Of a stretch of DNA of 54,168 nucleotides, positions 3,179 through 53,406 are shown in pieces (position 1 is the stretch's first letter; the number at the start of each line of letters is the position of its first letter). Source of the DNA: Candidatus Hydrogenedentota bacterium (GTDB taxonomy: Bacteria > Hydrogenedentota > Hydrogenedentia > Hydrogenedentales > SLHB01); contig JACQVH010000214.1 in assembly GCA_016209895.1 (NCBI GenBank), positions 1 through 54,168 on the forward strand. The letters run 5' to 3'. The position numbers were made by a program, and so were the translations under genes. A model generated the notes under the pieces. It saw nothing but the letters and a program-made list of their open reading frames with translations. It made no database searches and had not been told where the DNA came from.

Positions 3179-5583
3179 GCCGGTTGACGGTGAACTGTGC
3201 CGTTATTCTGGGCGCTTCGTTCCACTATTTCGCGTCAACTTCCGCGCCGGCACAGACGCCAAGAGCGAACTTGCCCGTTCCCGGTCCGGGTGTCGCCGAA
3301 ACGCCGCCTGCGGACAATCGAATCGAGCTTCATGTCTGGGGGATGAACCTTGCTGAGGTGCGCTATGGCACCTACGCCGTGGTCGCTCGTTTTGAAGAGA
3401 AGTACCCGAACGTGAAGGTCATTCTCGGACCTACCGACCGCGGCGAGGACCTTCAAAAGCTGCTCTGCGGTGTCGTCGGCAACGCGCCTCCGGATGTGTT
3501 CCGCCGCGAATCCAATCTCTTCGGCGATATCGCCGCCCGCGACATTCTTCTATCCTTGGAACCGTTCATAGAGACCGATAAGTCCCGTCCGGATGGTCTG
3601 TATGAAGTGGATTACCCGCCGGGCGTGTGGGCTTCGGGACATTACAACGACATCATGTACGCGATTCCGGAGAGTTCGAATCCGCTGGTGCTCGGCTACA
3701 ACAAGCGGTTATTTCGCGAAGCCGGTCTTGACCCCGATAGGCCGCCTCGTACCTGGGACGAGTGGATTGAGGCGACGCGCAAGCTGACGCGGGAGGGTGC
3801 GAATGGGCAGATTGATACTCTGGGCACTGCCATTCACGCTCGCGACGACCTGGCGTTCTATATCGCTCAAATCGGGGGACAAGTCTTATCGGAAGATGGG
3901 CGCACGTGTCGGTTGAATTCGCCGGAGGGTGTTCAAGCCCTGACGTTTCTGGGGCAGATGTTTGATGGCATGGGCGGCCGGCGAGCGTACAACGATTTCG
4001 TGGTAACCAATCCGGGCACGGACATCTACAATCCCTTCGCCATGGGCCGAATAGCGATGTCGGTCGAGGACGACTGGATCATCTTTCGCGCTATGCAGTA
4101 CGCGCCGGACATGGAGCTGGGGGTAGCGCCCGTACCGGCGCCGGCGGGTCGTCCAACGATTACGCAGTCGGCCACTAATGGGATGTATATGATCCCACGC
4201 AATGCACGCCACCCTAACGAGGCGTGGGACTTCGTTCGCTACATGAACTCGCCGGAATCGCAAATCATTATGCTCGATACCTTGAAAAAGCAGGCGATGC
4301 TACATGGCGGCAGACATATGTATCCGGGTTTTCGTCCGAACCGGAAGGTGCTCGAAGAATTATCCGCGCGCTTTGCCCCGCGCGAACCGCCGTTCGATAA
4401 ATGCTTCGAGACGTGCAAGCAGATTCTGGACACGCTGGTTCCCGTGACCATCAGTCCCGTGACCGCCGTGTTGCGCGATGAGATGCGCCGCGCAGTCGAG
4501 CGCGTGTCTTATCACGAAGTCTCACCACAGCAGGCGCTGAACGACGCGACGCACCGAGTCCAGGAACAATTGGCCCTATTCTATGGCCGCGAACGGGCGC
4601 CGCTCCTGGAATGGTGGTACGTTTGGCTGGCTTTCTTTGTGACGGTGTTGCTGGCGTTGGCCGTGATCGTTATCCGCACCCGGAGCGAACGCGCGTTCTC
4701 TTCGCTGCAGCGGCGCGAGAATCGTACCGGCCCGCTATTTGTGCTGCCCTGGGTTCTCGGTTTTCTGGTCTTTACGGCTGGACCGATGGTCTTTTCGTTC
4801 GCGATGAGCTTCTGCGACTACGACGTCATTCATCCGGCGCGGTGGGTAGGGATTCGGAATTACACGTCGCTGGTGTTGAAAGACCCGCTATTCACGAAGT
4901 CTCTCGCTAACACGGTGTTCATGGTGTTGGCGCTCCCCCTGGGCATGGCTACGAGCCTTTCCATCGCGCTCTTGTTGAATACCAAAGTCAGGGGTATGAG
5001 CGTGTATCGCACGATATTTTATCTTCCAGCTATCACGCCGGCGGTCGCCACGGCGGTGCTCTGGTATGCGCTGCTCAATCCCAGCGGGATTATCAACACC
5101 GCGTTGAGCGCTACGGTCTGCGGCTGGCTGGGTATCAATCCGCCCGCCTGGCTTCAAGACCCCGCTTGGTCGAAGCCGGCGCTGGTGCTGATGGGACTCT
5201 GGGGCGCGGGCGGCGGCATGATCTTGTGGCTGGCGGGGCTTCAAGGTATCCCGCAGCAACTCTACGAAGCGGCCGCGATTGATGGCGCCGGGACGTTTCG
5301 CCAGTTTCGTTCGATTACACTGCCGATGTTGACTCCCTACATCTTCTTCTCGCTCATCGTCGGCATTATCGGCGTCTTCCAGATATTCGCGCAGGCGCTG
5401 GTCTTAACGCTTGGCGGTCCGGCTGATTCCACGCTGTTTTACGTCTATTACCTGTTCAATTGCGCATTTCGTTATTTCAAGATGGGCTACGCCTCCGCCC
5501 AAGCCTGGATTCTCTTCGTCATCGTGCTCCTTCTAACGCTGATCCAATGGAAGCTCTCGAAAAGGTGGGTGCACTACGGTTAG
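3163..5583 (+). CDS. Fused sugar-binding protein and ABC permease (MalE-MalF type)
   Basis: One 806-residue chain carries two functions that are normally separate. Residues about 1-33 form a signal peptide or anchor. Residues about 45-475 are a family 1 extracellular solute-binding protein (LHVWGMN, NPLVLGYNKRLFREAGLDP, then NEAWDFVRYMNSPE). A membrane helix at about 485-505 (WYVWLAFFVTVLLALAVIVI) leads into a MalF-type permease of about six helices, with the EAA loop for ATPase docking at about 697-720 (YEAAAIDGAGTFRQFR). The start is TTG 3163: GGAGG lies seven bases upstream, and the gene overlaps the methyltransferase end. A second permease follows; no ATPase gene is present, so a shared MsmK-like ATPase elsewhere is likely. 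Confidence 0.9.
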   Translation: MANRLSRLTVNCAVILGASFHYFASTSAPAQTPRANLPVPGPGVAETPPADNRIELHVWGMNLAEVRYGTYAVVARFEEKYPNVKVILGPTDRGEDLQKLLCGVVGNAPPDVFRRESNLFGDIAARDILLSLEPFIETDKSRPDGLYEVDYPPGVWASGHYNDIMYAIPESSNPLVLGYNKRLFREAGLDPDRPPRTWDEWIEATRKLTREGANGQIDTLGTAIHARDDLAFYIAQIGGQVLSEDGRTCRLNSPEGVQALTFLGQMFDGMGGRRAYNDFVVTNPGTDIYNPFAMGRIAMSVEDDWIIFRAMQYAPDMELGVAPVPAPAGRPTITQSATNGMYMIPRNARHPNEAWDFVRYMNSPESQIIMLDTLKKQAMLHGGRHMYPGFRPNRKVLEELSARFAPREPPFDKCFETCKQILDTLVPVTISPVTAVLRDEMRRAVERVSYHEVSPQQALNDATHRVQEQLALFYGRERAPLLEWWYVWLAFFVTVLLALAVIVIRTRSERAFSSLQRRENRTGPLFVLPWVLGFLVFTAGPMVFSFAMSFCDYDVIHPARWVGIRNYTSLVLKDPLFTKSLANTVFMVLALPLGMATSLSIALLLNTKVRGMSVYRTIFYLPAITPAVATAVLWYALLNPSGIINTALSATVCGWLGINPPAWLQDPAWSKPALVLMGLWGAGGGMILWLAGLQGIPQQLYEAAAIDGAGTFRQFRSITLPMLTPYIFFSLIVGIIGVFQIFAQALVLTLGGPADSTLFYVYYLFNCAFRYFKMGYASAQAWILFVIVLLLTLIQWKLSKRWVHYG

Positions 5584-5644
5584 CAATGAGCAATGAGCAA
5601 TGAGGAGCCGATCACTGACCACTGGTCACTGACCACTACAAAAT
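5582..5644 (+). repeat. Degenerate heptamer tandem tract filling the gap between permease genes
   Basis: The tract is nine consecutive 7-bp units. It opens with AGCAATG three times and continues through AGGAGCC, GATCACT, GACCACT, GGTCACT and GACCACT to a final unit whose last two bases are the AT of the next gene's ATG. The first unit overlaps the TAG stop of the upstream gene by two bases, so the whole gap is repeat. The only purine-rich SD-like unit (AGGAGCC) lies more than 30 bases from the start codon. Confidence 0.85.
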
Positions 5645-6518
5645 GAACTGGCGCATGCGACAGAAGGTTCGGCAGACGGTACAGTATGGGTTTGCCCATG
5701 CGGTGTTGATTGCCGGCGCGGTTCTTTTCTCGATGCCGTTCCTGTGGTTGATCACCACGAGTTTCAAGGGGCCGAACGAGATTTTTGCGGTGCCGTTCCG
5801 GTGGTTGCCGGAGGTGGGCCAAAGTTGGCCCGTGGACTGGTCGAAGGCCTTCCAGAACTTCCGGAGCGCTCAGGAATTCATCCCTTTCTGGTTGTGGATT
5901 CGCAATACCTTCTACGTGACGGCGCTGGACGTGTTCTTCAACGTGATGATGAGCAGCATCGTGGCTTATGGCTTCTCGCGAGTACGATGGCGGGGCCGCG
6001 ATATTGTATTCATTTTGTTGTTGGCGACGCTGATGCTGCCGGCCCAAGTGACCATGATTCCGACGTTTCTCATCTTCAACCAACTCGGCTGGTACAACAC
6101 GCTGACGCCACTCTGGGTGGGCGCTCTCTTCGGCAACGCGTTCAGCATCTTCCTGCTGCGGCAGTTCATGATGACGATTCCGATGGAACTCGAGGACGCG
6201 GCGAAGATTGACGGCTGTGGCCATTTTCGCATTTACCGAACCATCGTGCTGCCGTTGATTAAGCCCGCGCTTGCGGTGGTGGCCGTGCAGACGTTTCAAG
6301 GGGCCTGGAACAACTTCCTCGGTCCGTATATTTACGTCAACACCAAAGACAAGATGACCATCGCTTTGGGACTGCAATGGTTCAAGAGCGAACACCTCGC
6401 AATGTACGGCGAAATGATGGCCACCTCGCTGGTGATGACGCTACCGATAATCTTTATTTTCTTCTTCTGCCAGCGGTACATGATCCAGGGAATTTCTCTG
6501 ACCGGAATCAAGGCCTAG
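5643..6518 (+). CDS. Carbohydrate ABC transporter permease (MalG type)
   Basis: This 291-residue inner-membrane protein has six hydrophobic segments and the EAA loop LEDAAKIDGCGHFRIYRTI at about residues 183-202, which contacts the ATPase subunit. The region near LLATLMLPAQVTMIPTFL is typical of MalG/UgpE-like subunits. It is the partner of the preceding SBP-permease fusion; the two would form the heterodimeric channel. The 59-base gap between them is made of a heptamer repeat tract and lacks a normally placed Shine-Dalgarno sequence, so translation may depend on coupling or be SD-independent. Confidence 0.92.
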   Translation: MNWRMRQKVRQTVQYGFAHAVLIAGAVLFSMPFLWLITTSFKGPNEIFAVPFRWLPEVGQSWPVDWSKAFQNFRSAQEFIPFWLWIRNTFYVTALDVFFNVMMSSIVAYGFSRVRWRGRDIVFILLLATLMLPAQVTMIPTFLIFNQLGWYNTLTPLWVGALFGNAFSIFLLRQFMMTIPMELEDAAKIDGCGHFRIYRTIVLPLIKPALAVVAVQTFQGAWNNFLGPYIYVNTKDKMTIALGLQWFKSEHLAMYGEMMATSLVMTLPIIFIFFFCQRYMIQGISLTGIKA

Positions 6519-7513: not shown

Positions 7514-8344
7514 ATGCCAAGACGATTTCGACTTGCGGTAACGGCGATTGATCGCCCGGATGATAATCCGGCGGCGGTAATCGAGAGTTGTGTGGCGGCC
7601 ATTGCCGAGGCCGGCGAACGCGGCGCGGACCTGATAGTCTTGCCGGAGGAACCCGACATCATTGCGGGCGGGACTTACGGCCAGCACCGTTTGGAAGCAC
7701 ATCCGGCGTTCATTGCGTTCCGCGATCAGGCCAAGAAGTCGAAAGTCGGCGTTATCGGCACGCTGTCGGTAATCTTCGAAAACCGTCATGCGAACATGGG
7801 TTTCCTGCTGGACCGCCGCGGTGAGGTCATCGGTACGTACCGCAAGAAGCATCCCGCGCCGACGGAAGAAGCGATCATCACCAAACCGGAAGACGGCGGC
7901 GCGTTTCCCGTCTTCGATTTTGAAGGTGTTACTCTCGGAATCGCTATCTGCATGGACATCCACTTTCCGGAAATGTTCCGCATCTACGGACTGAAAGGCG
8001 CGGACCTCGTTTGTGTTCCGACGATGTATCTCGATTACACCGGCGACATGCTCGAGGCCATTGAGAAGGCACGTGCGATTGACAGCCAGATGTACTTCGC
8101 GCTTTCCCGATATATCTCGAAACCATTTCTGGCCGGGAAGAACATGGGCTATGCGAAGGTGATTGCGCCGGACGGGCGCATTATCGTTTCGACCGGGCAC
8201 CAGGACGGGGTCGCGATTGCCGAGTTCGATCCGAAGTGGCGGTTCGCGTTTTGGGGCGACGGCTACGGCGGGAATCTGCGAACGATGTTCGACACCATTC
8301 GCCACCCGGAATTTTACGGAGAGCTGACGGAGCCAAGGAAGTAG
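7514..8344 (+). CDS. Nitrilase-superfamily carbon-nitrogen hydrolase
   Basis: This 276-residue protein has the full Glu-Lys-Cys triad of the superfamily: Glu in LIVLPEEPD (about residue 45), Lys in GTYRKKHPAP (about 115) and Cys in IAICMDIHFPE (about 150). The typical substrate is an amide, N-carbamoyl compound or omega-amidic acid. It sits among sugar-transport, deacetylase and aminotransferase genes, which suggests removal of an amide group from an amino-sugar derivative or its breakdown product. That substrate is inference. Length and motif order are normal. Confidence 0.88.
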   Translation: MPRRFRLAVTAIDRPDDNPAAVIESCVAAIAEAGERGADLIVLPEEPDIIAGGTYGQHRLEAHPAFIAFRDQAKKSKVGVIGTLSVIFENRHANMGFLLDRRGEVIGTYRKKHPAPTEEAIITKPEDGGAFPVFDFEGVTLGIAICMDIHFPEMFRIYGLKGADLVCVPTMYLDYTGDMLEAIEKARAIDSQMYFALSRYISKPFLAGKNMGYAKVIAPDGRIIVSTGHQDGVAIAEFDPKWRFAFWGDGYGGNLRTMFDTIRHPEFYGELTEPRK

Positions 8345-8355
8345 TGTCGCGACTG

Positions 8356-8409
8356 ATAGGAGTAATAGGACCCGTCAGACCTGTCTGACGGGTCGGACCA
8401 GTCGGACAG
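8356..8409 (+). repeat. Degenerate nonamer tandem tract with a perfect 12-bp hairpin
   Basis: Six 9-bp units can be read. The last four follow GTCnGACnn (GTCAGACCT, GTCTGACGG, GTCGGACCA, GTCGGACAG); the first two start ATAGGA. The tract begins soon after the nitrilase stop and ends exactly before an ATG at 8410. Within it, 8369-8394 forms GACCCGTCAGAC and its exact complement around a CT centre, a strong RNA hairpin without a U-tract. Confidence 0.75.
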
Positions 8410-40964: not shown

Positions 40965-42014
40965 ATGACTTCACGTGAACGGGTGAAGCGAACTTTGGAT
41001 TTTCAGTATCCCGATCGGGCGCCGCGGGATTTGTGGGCTTTGGCGGGCGTCGGGATGCTGCGAAAGGCCGAGCTTGAGGAGGTTCAGCAGCGGTTTCCGT
41101 CGGATTTCTGCGGGCCGCGGGTCCGGTACGGGACGTCGAAGCGGGCGCGGGGTACGCCGGCAGAGGTCGGCGAATACGTTGACGAGTGGGGCTGCGTTTG
41201 GAACGTGGCCGAAATCGGTGTGTGCGGGGAAGTGAAACAGCCGCCACTCGAGGATTGGAGCGCCCTGGCCCATTTCACGCCGCCATGGGAAATCCTGAAC
41301 GAGGCCGACTTCAGCCAGACCAACGAGTCCTGCGCGAAGACCGACAAGTTCGTCAAAGCCGGCACCGGCGTGCGGCCATTCGAGCGGATGCAGTTTCTGC
41401 GCGGGTCCGAGAATCTGTTCCTGGACCTCGCCTACTTGCCGAAAGAACTCTTGCTGTTGCGCGACATGGTGCACGAGTATTTTGTCCGCGAATTGGAACT
41501 GTGGGTGAAGACCGACGTCGAGGCGATTGGTTTCATGGACGACTGGGGCGCCCAGAGCAGCCTGCTGATTTCGCCGGACCTGTGGCGGCAGATATATAAG
41601 CCCTTGTATGCCGATTATTGCAGTATGATCAAGAAGGCGGGGAAATACGTCTTCTTCCATTCCGATGGCCACATTCGCGCAATCATTCCGGACCTCATCG
41701 AGATTGGCGTAGATGCCATGAATTCGCAATTGTTTTGCATGGACATCGAGGAGATCGGCCGCAGTTTCAAAGGAAAGATCACCTTCTGGGGCGAGATTTG
41801 CCGCCAACGTCTCCTGCCATTCGGGACCGTGGACGAAGTGCGCGCAGCGGTGCGCCGCGTCCGTCGGGCGTTGGATGAGGGCAAGGGCGGGGTCATTGCT
41901 CAATGCGAATGGGGCATCCGCGACCCCAAGGAGAACATCGAAGCCGTCTTCGAAACTTGGTCGGAAGACCACCCAGCATCTGTGACCGCGCGACTATCCA
42001 CCACCACCTCGTAA
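40965..42014 (+). CDS. UroD-family protein, HSDG type (fourth paralog)
   Basis: This 349-residue UroD-fold protein opens TSRERVKRTLDFQYPDRAP. At the zinc position it reads FFHSDGHIRAI: the His remains but the Cys is Asp, intermediate between the MtaA-like and DTDG paralogs in the minus-strand operon. It lies outside that operon, on the other strand. AAGGA five bases before ATG 40965 fixes the start. The stop codon sits in the loop of a small hairpin that begins a repeat-rich region. It may serve the same methyl-transfer system or be independent. Confidence 0.82.
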   Translation: MTSRERVKRTLDFQYPDRAPRDLWALAGVGMLRKAELEEVQQRFPSDFCGPRVRYGTSKRARGTPAEVGEYVDEWGCVWNVAEIGVCGEVKQPPLEDWSALAHFTPPWEILNEADFSQTNESCAKTDKFVKAGTGVRPFERMQFLRGSENLFLDLAYLPKELLLLRDMVHEYFVRELELWVKTDVEAIGFMDDWGAQSSLLISPDLWRQIYKPLYADYCSMIKKAGKYVFFHSDGHIRAIIPDLIEIGVDAMNSQLFCMDIEEIGRSFKGKITFWGEICRQRLLPFGTVDEVRAAVRRVRRALDEGKGGVIAQCEWGIRDPKENIEAVFETWSEDHPASVTARLSTTTS

Positions 42015-42082
42015 TCGAGGTTCGTAATCGTACTTGAGGTTCGTGCTCGTGATCGCAATCGGAGACTCGTAATCGAGTCTCC
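42007..42082 (+). repeat. CG-phased short repeat tract with two TAAT-loop hairpins
   Basis: CG dinucleotides recur mostly every 6 bp (units like CGTAAT, CGTGAT, CGCAAT). Two hairpins share a TAAT loop: CCTCG/CGAGG at 42007-42020, whose loop holds the UroD stop codon, and GGAGACTCG/CGAGTCTCC at 42061-42082. The second is a plausible transcription or processing signal, without a U-tract. Confidence 0.55.
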
Positions 42083-50946: not shown

Positions 50947-51191
50947 CGATTCCGGGAGAAATCGTCAGCGTTGACGAAAACGAATCCTTTCTTCGGCAAG
51001 GCCAGGTCAGTTTTGGTGGAATTCTCAAGACGGTGTCCCTGGCGCTGGTGCCGGAGGCTCGCGTCGGACAATACGTGCTCATCCACGCCGGTGTGGCCAT
51101 CCATATCGTGGACGAGGTCGAGGCCCAGAAAGTCTTCGAATGTCTGAGGGAATTGGGCGAACTGGAAGCATCGGAGCGACGCAGTCCGTGA
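50937..51191 (+). CDS. hypC: Hydrogenase assembly chaperone HypC
   Basis: This 84-residue protein starts MCLAIPGEI, with the Cys2 that binds iron and HypD, and contains [13 protein letters not shown], typical of the family. It overlaps hypF by ten bases and its stop overlaps the GTG of hypD (GTGA). Confidence 0.94.
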
Positions 51192-52312
51192 AGTATCTCG
51201 ATGAATACCGCGACGGCGCGGCCGCACGACAGTTCGCAGATGCCATCCGCCGTTGCGTGACGCGACCTTGGACCATCATGGAAATCTGTGGTGGACAAAC
51301 CCACGCGATCGTGAAGTTCGGCATTGATCAGTTGCTTCCCCCGCAGATGACGTTGGTCCACGGCCCCGGGTGTCCGGTCTGTGTTACTCCCCTCGAACTC
51401 GTTGACGCGGCCGTCACGCTGGCGCGTCGGCCGGAAGTGATCTTCTGCTCCTTTGGAGACATGTTGCGCGTACCGGGAACTGATTCGGACCTGTTGGCCG
51501 TGAAGGCCGAAGGCGGCGACGTTCGGACCGTGTACTCGCCGCTCGACGCCGTCAAGTTTGCGCGCGAGAATCCTCGTCGGGAAATAGTCTTCTTCGCGGT
51601 CGGTTTCGAAACCACCGCGCCCGCGAACGCCCTCGCCGTGTATCACGCCCAACAAGAAGGTATCGCCAATTTCTCCATCCTTTGCTCTCACGTATTGGTC
51701 CCGCCCGCCATCGAGGCGATCCTCTCGTCTCCGCAAAATCGGGTCCAGGGCTTCCTGGCAGCGGGCCACGTTTGTACCGTGATGGGCTTTCGCGAATACG
51801 AGCCGCTCGCGCAAAAGTATCGTATCCCCATCGTGGTTACTGGATTCGAACCACTCGACATCCTGCACGGCATCTATCTTTGTGTGAGGCAACTCGAAGA
51901 AGGCCGTGCCGAAGTCGAGAATCAATACGCGCGTTCTGTCTCGCGCTGCGGTAATCGGAGCGCGCAGCGGTTGATGGAGGCCATTTTCCAAGTGGTGAAC
52001 CGCAAGTGGCGTGGAATCGGCGAGATTCCCCACAGCGGCCTCGGGCTGCGTTCCCAATTTCGGGAGTTTGATGCGGCGCGGCGGTTCGAGCTCGCAGATT
52101 ACACCGTGGACGAGCCTGCCGAGTGCATCGGCGGGCTGATCCTCCAAGGCGTGAAAAAGCCGTATGAATGTTCTGCGTTTGCGACACGGTGCACGCCGGA
52201 TCACCCGTTCGGCGCGCCGATGGTGTCCTCCGAAGGCGCCTGCGCGGCTTATTATCGTTACCGGAGAAAGTGCCGAGTAACGAGCGATGAGCAACGAGTA
52301 ACTGACAACTAA
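51188..52312 (+). CDS. hypD: Hydrogenase maturation protein HypD
   Basis: This 374-residue iron-sulfur scaffold for Fe(CN)2CO assembly has its cysteines in [17 protein letters not shown] and [10 protein letters not shown], with a further Cys in [11 protein letters not shown] 51188 overlaps the HypC stop. The last 13 residues ([13 protein letters not shown]) and the stop codon are encoded by the heptamer repeat tract, so the gene's 3' end appears to have been captured by or extended into the repeat. Confidence 0.93.
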
Positions 52313-52352
52313 CAACTAGCAACTAAGAACTAACAACTAGCAACCAACAAAT
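52269..52352 (+). repeat. Twelve-unit heptamer tract joining hypD and hypE
   Basis: Twelve consecutive 7-bp units run from AGTGCCG and AGTAACG through AGCAACG, GACAACT, AACAACT and AGCAACT to AACAAAT, whose last two bases begin the hypE ATG. It therefore codes for the end of HypD, includes the stop codon, and fills the whole gap. Units drift from G-rich to A/C-rich along the tract. There is no Shine-Dalgarno sequence before hypE. Confidence 0.9.
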
Positions 52353-53406
52353 GGAACAGCGCCCTGAAATGAGTGTTAGCTGCCCCGTCGCCCTGCGCAG
52401 GTACGCCAACATTGTCCTTGCGCACGGCGGCGGTGGAACCCTCATGCACGAACTACTGCAAGAGACTTTTCTTTCGGCATTTCATAATCCTGTGCTGGAC
52501 CAACGTCACGATTCCGCGCTCTTGGACATCGCCGGTGTTAAACTCGCCTTTACGACGGATTCCTACGTGGTGCACCCGCTGGTCTTTCCGGGAGGTGATA
52601 TCGGAAGTTTGGCCGTGCATGGCACGATCAACGATCTCGCCATGCTTGGGGCGCGGCCGCGGTATCTGAGCGCCGGCTTTATCCTCGAGGAAGGTTTGCC
52701 GGTGGATACGTTGAATGCCGTCGTGGTGTCCATGCAGCACGCGGCCGAACGGTGCGGAGTGCAGATCGCAACCGGGGACACCAAAGTTGTCGAGCGAGGT
52801 AAAGGTGACGGAGTCTTCATTAATACCACCGGAATCGGTCAGATCGAGCATTCTCTCGAGATAGGTCCCCGACAAGTGAAGGCCGGCGATGCTATCCTCA
52901 TTAACGGGGACATCGGACGACATGGCATTGCCATCATCGCGGTCCGCCAAGGTCTCGAGTTCGAGACTACCATTGAGAGCGATTCCGCACCCGTGGCCGG
53001 CTTGGTTCGGTCGCTCATCGAAGCCGGCATCGAGATTCATTGCCTGCGCGACCTCACGCGGGGCGGCCTCGCCAGCGCCGCAAACGAGATCGCCGAGGCG
53101 GCACGGTTGGAGATTCGTATTGACGAGACGGCCGTACCCGTGCGTGAGGACGTGCGGGGCGCCTGTGAAATGCTCGGATTTGATCCTTTATACGTGGCCA
53201 ATGAGGGGCGTTTCATCGCATTCACACCGGCCCGTGACGTTTCACGCGCGCTAGACATCCTGCACTCCGACCCGCTGGGTGCCGGCGCGAGTCAGATCGG
53301 CGAGGTGGCAACCAATGAGACACCGTTAGTTACGTTAAAGAGCCGGATCGGTGCGGCCCGCATCCTCGACATGCTCTCCGGCGAACAATTGCCCCGAATC
53401 TGCTGA
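52351..53406 (+). CDS. hypE: Hydrogenase maturation protein HypE
   Basis: This 351-residue dehydratase converts HypF-delivered carbamoyl into cyanide on its own C-terminal Cys. It ends PRIC, as required, and carries [15 protein letters not shown] near the start and [15 protein letters not shown], typical of HypE/ThiL/PurM proteins. It begins immediately after the heptamer tract. ATG 52369 in frame is an alternative; neither has a normal ribosome site. Confidence 0.93.

Follow-up and report, generated by a model that had tools for sequence, protein, structure and literature searches.

The heptamer array between the two transporter genes

We considered as the window the whole stretch of DNA analysed, 54,168 nt in length, which is contig 175 of the 312 contigs of the 5.34 Mb host genome; the genes and arrays described at its two array-bearing junctions are on the forward strand. 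A gene encoding a fusion of a solute-binding protein with an ABC permease (3343..5583; Pfam SBP_bac_1 and BPD_transp_1) is followed by a further ABC permease gene (5643..6518; Pfam BPD_transp_1), whose relatives are 70-74% identical. Among named relatives, those closest to the permease are Candidatus Hydrogenedentota, together with a single contig filed under KSB1, and the host groups with Candidatus Hydrogenedentota. As to the fused gene, open frames of similar length are seen in many relatives.

The upstream gene ends at the stop codon TAG 5581-5583 and the downstream one begins at ATG 5643-5645, with an intergenic gap of 59 nt (the sequence of 5581-5645 is tAGCAATGAGCAATGAGCAATGAGGAGCCGATCACTGACCACTGGTCACTGACCACTACAAAATG). 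The heptamer array at 5582-5644 is real, and its AGCAATG and CACTGAC arms have a common 7-bp register. The first arm (5582..5604, family A) consists of AGCAATG units, G-rich in sense, running from the stop codon onward: the AG of the TAG represents the first two bases of the first unit, and Tandem Repeats Finder gave 3.3 copies of AGCAATG at 100%. The second arm (5613..5637, family D) consists of CACTGAC/GGTCACT units, C-rich in sense, for which the same program gave 3.6 copies of CACTGAC at 77%; its G-rich strand is directed back into the gap (inward-facing architecture). Transitional bases (5605..5612) join the two unit families, and a non-repeat ACAAA (5638..5642) lies immediately 5′ of the ATG.

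The first-pass annotation had described this tract as nine units running from inside the stop codon to the AT of the next ATG. Its starting point was confirmed, the repeat beginning at 5582 within TAG 5581-5583. The number of units was not, given that AGGAGCC and GATCACT are transitional and that the ninth heptamer, ACAAAAT, resembles no other unit; as ACAAAAT is not a repeat copy, the start-codon end of 5582-5644 is not a repeat boundary.

The second array at hypD

The other array of the window (52269..52350) is made of AGTGCCG/AGTAACG/AGCAACG units and then of AACTAAC/AACTAGC units (families B, A and E), and the tract 52269-52352 ends in AACCAACAAATG. Upstream of it is hypD (51140..52312), with the Pfam HypD domain at residues 29-375 (profile positions 3-351 of 351). 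Residue 375, the last of the conserved domain, corresponds to nt 52264. The array starts just past it, at 52269, still within the hypD ORF, of which 44 bp are left up to and including the current stop codon. This in-frame stop (TAA 52310-52312) lies within the array. Relatives of HypD end 0 to about 16 residues past AYYRYRR or its equivalent; in the host, both the C-terminal tail (52265-52312) and the stop are now array-encoded. The gene 3′ of the array (52351..53406) belongs to the AIR synthase-related (AIRS) family (Pfam AIRS and AIRS_C), and by context, i.e. from its position after hypD, we named it hypE.

Stop-to-start filling, which the first-pass annotation took to suggest a defined mechanism, does not extend to 52269-52352, which begins within an ORF and not at a stop. 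The phase that this tract shares with the permease tract relative to the downstream ATG had been noted as well; we judged it a 1-in-7 coincidence and rejected an ATG phase, because the unit register relative to the next start was flat over 22 array/start pairs (3, 3, 3, 5, 4, 1 and 3).

Abundance of heptamer arrays in the host genome

We sampled 1.47 Mb of the host genome, about a quarter of it, and counted as unbiased the 1.27 Mb that were not chosen for arrays, consisting mostly of the initial 20 kb of each of contigs 1 to 79, plus extensions of some long contigs. Genes were called by our own simple script, and start codons in particular are approximate.

An autocorrelation scan of the unbiased 1.27 Mb, a check proposed in the first-pass annotation, found period 7 to be strongly over-represented, with 131 arrays (about 100 per million bases), 120 of which were mostly outside genes although 84% of the sequence is coding. 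At other periods there were 2 segments at lag 5, 11 at lag 6 (10 of them in genes), 2 at lag 8 and 35 at lag 9, while lag 14 repeated the period-7 signal. Markov-randomised intergenic DNA gave 0, 0, 1, 0 and 0 lag-7 segments, against 116 observed. For the relatives, 3 period-7 arrays were found in 261 kb from 20 of them. The family A pattern GAGCAAYGAGCAAYGAG, with at most 1 mismatch, had 229 matches in the host genome and at most one match in each of 67 other genomes of the phylum; an exact family A match was present in 7 of 400 Chloroflexota genomes.

Some arrays placed in the same way were observed in other genomes. In the relative G031, of the same order, the region L233 12348-13127 has heptamer arrays, one in sense at a stop and one in antisense before a start. 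In the Chloroflexota contig L246, an array at 1535-1618 has a stop codon at its beginning and an ATG a short distance beyond its end; its left part is G-rich and its right part C-rich.

Repeats of other lengths were also seen in the window. A period-9 array (GGACCAGTC, 4.4 copies) is located at 8368-8407, 24 nt past the stop of the gene 7592-8344, and period-9 arrays are also over-represented between genes (25 at lag 9 vs 2 at lag 8). A 19-bp repeat (2.5 copies) at 42008-42055 overlaps the stop of the gene 40965-42014.

Unit families and array architecture

A dozen or so unit families were defined by eye, and the strand counts based on families depend on them. The consensus sequences of the first five are GAGCAAY (A), GAGTNCC (B), YRGAAAC (C), TGAYCAC (D) and TARCAAC (E), and several families recur at many loci. 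At stops, the two strands were counted 8:0 for family A, which lies in sense, 9:0 for B, 0:7 for C, 6:1 for G, 5:0 for I and 3:6 for D. In the gaps with two measurable arms, 18 were inward-facing, 1 was outward-facing and 21 had both arms in the same direction. Along composites the families follow the order A, B, C, then D or E (27:0 by mean position), with A before B in 48 A/B junctions and after it in 14 genome-wide; the order is a strong bias, not a law, and where it puts A and B ahead of C and D it restates the inward facing. The gaps with inverted arms were rejected as MITEs, four of them compared by eye having unlike cores. As a separate observation, family A arrays at L163 60-220 alternate with a repeated near-palindromic spacer, TCCCGCGCCGCGCGGGA.

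The many families, the fixed strand at stops, the biased order (A, B, then C, D) and the inward composites could be read as the product of a dedicated directional process that writes arrays outward from gene ends, with an enzyme or a replication intermediate copying units with polarity. We consider such a process improbable.

Position of the arrays relative to stop and start codons

As a boundary control, each array was placed at random within its own gap. An array overlapped the stop or lay <= 5 nt from it at 42% of gene 3′ ends, against 17% predicted by random placement, while 3% of gene 5′ ends were contacted, against 13% predicted. In the orientation test the strand of each array was set by G > C alone, without positional information. 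When the stop was on the G-rich 5′ side, 37 of 61 arrays, counting overlaps, started no more than 5 nt beyond it (median +2), whereas 8 of 52 were in contact when the stop was on the 3′ side of the G-rich strand (Fisher test, p 9e-7). For start codons there was no excess of contact within 5 nt on either of the two sides in the same orientation test (1/56 and 3/65), and the comparison between stops and starts (37/61 vs 1/56) gave p 6e-13. A split-half test, in which one half of the contigs served to learn the strands and the other half to apply them, gave the same stop-side picture. In the period-9 control, with too few arrays for a judgement, 2 of 5 were at a stop lying on their G-rich 5′ side and 0 of 29 elsewhere within 15 nt.

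The link of the arrays is with stop codons, in one orientation, and not with start codons. The expectation that array ends respect gene boundaries was borne out for stops, more strictly than had been supposed, with the G-rich strand in sense, and failed for starts, at which neither contact nor phase was found. Filling of the gap above 80% was seen in 4 of 66 co-directional cases.

In co-directional gaps, G-rich sense arrays prevailed at the stop (34:7), and near divergent genes the G-rich strand pointed away from the gene (4:1). Transcription-linked expansion, in which ribosome-free, G-rich nascent RNA past the stop would form R-loops that drive slippage and growth in sense, would account for both the stop edge and the G-richness in sense, and array density was indeed lowest in divergent gaps (about 0.37 per kb, vs 0.65 in co-directional and 0.58 in convergent ones). 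We nevertheless regard it as very improbable, given that co-directional arrays were mostly antisense both at <= 60 nt from the start (10:2) and in mid-gap (22:12).

Another reading is that the contact with stops is trivial: units like ATGAGCA and GTGACCA hold stops in all frames and would define the end of any gene that they touch. Family A does place TGA in frame, 25 of the 61 stop-side arrays overlap the stop and part of these may merely supply it, and the same constraint has been described for TAACTGA repeats (PMC4679880). However, the stop of the upstream permease is ancestral, as described below, and 7 of the 12 arrays starting 0-5 nt after a stop contain no stop trinucleotide in any frame, hence the lock on stops is not merely due to array-supplied stops, which we rejected as the full cause. 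The orientation of the stop-free families I and C would be left unexplained as well. Stop supply alone is insufficient on present data, and we hold this reading to be doubtful.

Tests of function and mobility

RNA folding of the two tracts of the window gave z values of -0.20 and +1.68. For 51 stop-adjacent arrays the mean folding z was -0.27, vs -0.48 in array-free 3′ flanks, with no excess of structure; a role as RNA hairpin or terminator was therefore rejected, folding being no stronger than in the control 3′ flanks. No Rfam family matched within the window, and a plasmid BLAST search found no match. The host genome has 5 Y1 transposases (Y1_Tnp), vs 0-13 in relatives, with no enrichment, and 2 reverse transcriptases, a number within the range of the relatives, so that a mobile element with its own enzyme is unsupported.

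A selected function of the arrays at 3′ ends is possible. The arrays could be functional elements of the mRNA 3′ end, kept by selection, whose G-rich heptads bind a protein or block 3′ exonucleases or read-through. Such a role would agree with arrays that are in sense and touch the stop, and with the finding that in Xanthomonas the starts or stops of transcripts were more frequent at G4-capable heptamers than at control repeats (PMC4692102). On the other hand, a dozen or so unlike families behave alike and a single binder would not be expected to read all of them, folding does not exceed that of controls, a corresponding antisense pattern exists at starts, and the array is missing from three orthologous permease operons. 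On balance, we consider this explanation unlikely, though deserving some weight.

Origin of the array at the permease junction

Heptamers were absent from the permease junction of three orthologous operons (L021, L022 and L023). The upstream permease of the orthologs ends in KKWVHY[GDE]*, and the stop in the window is aligned to the same residue. Specifically, in L021 the sequence is KKWVHYD*, with a TAG stop and a plausible GTG start 11 nt on; in L022 it is KKWVHYG*, with a TAA stop and an ATG start 6 nt on; in L023 it is KKWVHYE*, followed by a junction without heptamers. The length of the gap in orthologs (about 6-11 nt) was taken from L021 and L022 only, in which the next starts are clearly readable. 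In further permease relatives the stop is at or near this position, and the 85 nt examined contain no heptamers.

Judging from these alignments, the 59-nt stop-to-start fill is best read as a lineage-specific gain of an array of about 60 bp, with the ancestral stop unchanged; the exact fill at 5582-5644 would then be due to insertion of the array into an ancestral gap of few bases. The comparison with related genomes at the same gap hence favours gain, with three operons lacking heptamers and the same stop residue, at one junction only, which is the one clear case of an array gain dated by orthologs.

The first-pass annotation had seen in the exact fill a boundary device that shapes the mRNA or promotes ribosome re-initiation. 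The permease tract does fill its gap; however, few other gaps are filled, starts show neither contact nor phase, and the next plausible start is closer in two relatives (about 6-11 nt) than in the window. Moreover, folding is not above that of controls and one of the two tracts of the window has no stop at its beginning. Re-initiation therefore appears extremely unlikely as an explanation.

Comparison with known repeats

The host arrays extend a class of repeats known from Xanthomonas, cyanobacteria and giant sulfur bacteria. The STRR heptamers of heterocystous cyanobacteria, named in the first-pass annotation, comprise several degenerate families in intergenic DNA, a feature in which the host arrays may be likened to them. 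REP/BIME are palindromic hairpins associated with Y1 transposases, with inward-facing repeats beyond stop codons. The host arrays are likewise inward-facing and beyond stop codons but, unlike REP/BIME, they fold no more than controls and are not accompanied by an enrichment of Y1_Tnp. The over-abundance of heptamers in bacterial gaps has been noted repeatedly, to our knowledge with no demonstrated mechanism.

The GGGAATC and GGGGA(C/T)T heptamers of Xanthomonas and Nostoc are near or overlapping stops in sense and before starts in antisense (Rehm et al. 2015, PMC4692102). They were not found with mobile elements and form one G4-capable family in which four units are preferred, and the same paper cites a proposal that the abundance of heptamers mirrors the stretch of DNA that the polymerase holds (PMC4692102). 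Like these repeats, the host arrays are degenerate, intergenic, over-represented outside genes, of period exactly 7, few between divergent genes, in sense at stops and in antisense near starts (10:2 in co-directional gaps). Unlike them, the host arrays fall into about a dozen families, most of which lack runs of three G, with composites in a biased family order and contact with the stop at a median of +2 nt. The arrays of the window do not have the G4-type consensus GGGNATC, their units lacking a G3 run; elsewhere in the host genome G3 runs occur in family K (GGGTTTC) and in some C units (CAGGGAC).

TAACTGA direct repeats occur in Beggiatoaceae, cyanobacteria and Bacteroidetes, and are intergenic and patchy (MacGregor 2015, PMC4679880). 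In the main genome, the majority of the sets terminate one to several nt short of a start codon, and the stops that the unit carries in three frames limit placement, some sets overlapping upstream stops (PMC4679880). The host arrays are similarly intergenic and patchy in distribution, some of them over upstream stops, and family D and E units resemble TAACTGA; no tandem TAACTGA was found among the host arrays listed, with related units (TGACCAC, TAACAAC) only. Unlike the TAACTGA sets, the host arrays do not contact starts. The placement rule of the host matches that of PMC4692102 and departs from that of PMC4679880. The boundary rule had been considered not previously known, whereas stop-proximal sense heptamers are in the first of these papers and start-proximal ones in the second.

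Proposed explanation of the arrays

We consider it somewhat more probable than its negation that the arrays are proliferating heptamer repeats that grow directionally and are bounded by selection at gene edges. Copying between loci would generate them, together with replication slippage and point mutation, and their growth, or their displacement of the flanking DNA, would be one-directional with respect to the G-rich strand; we infer this direction from the positions at which arrays end, i.e. from end states. We know of no process that makes an array grow or erode its flanks in one direction. Selection would halt growth at the first base that matters. At gene 3′ ends this limit would be the stop codon, past which nothing is needed; before genes it would be some 20-60 nt short of the start, the leader and the ribosome-binding site being needed. 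A leader acting as the bounding element would fit the greater distances of arrays from starts. At the permease junction, an inward-facing array would have been inserted where the ancestral spacer was only few bases long, and an exact fill arising in this way needs no mechanism that reads boundaries and no role in re-initiation.

The diversity of families within one genome separates the sequence of the unit from the placement of the array: in arrays of any unit, the G-rich strand tends to begin at the stop and to point into the gap. This makes the origin of the arrays testable by comparing strains, and is a caution against reading repeats that run from stop to start as translational devices.
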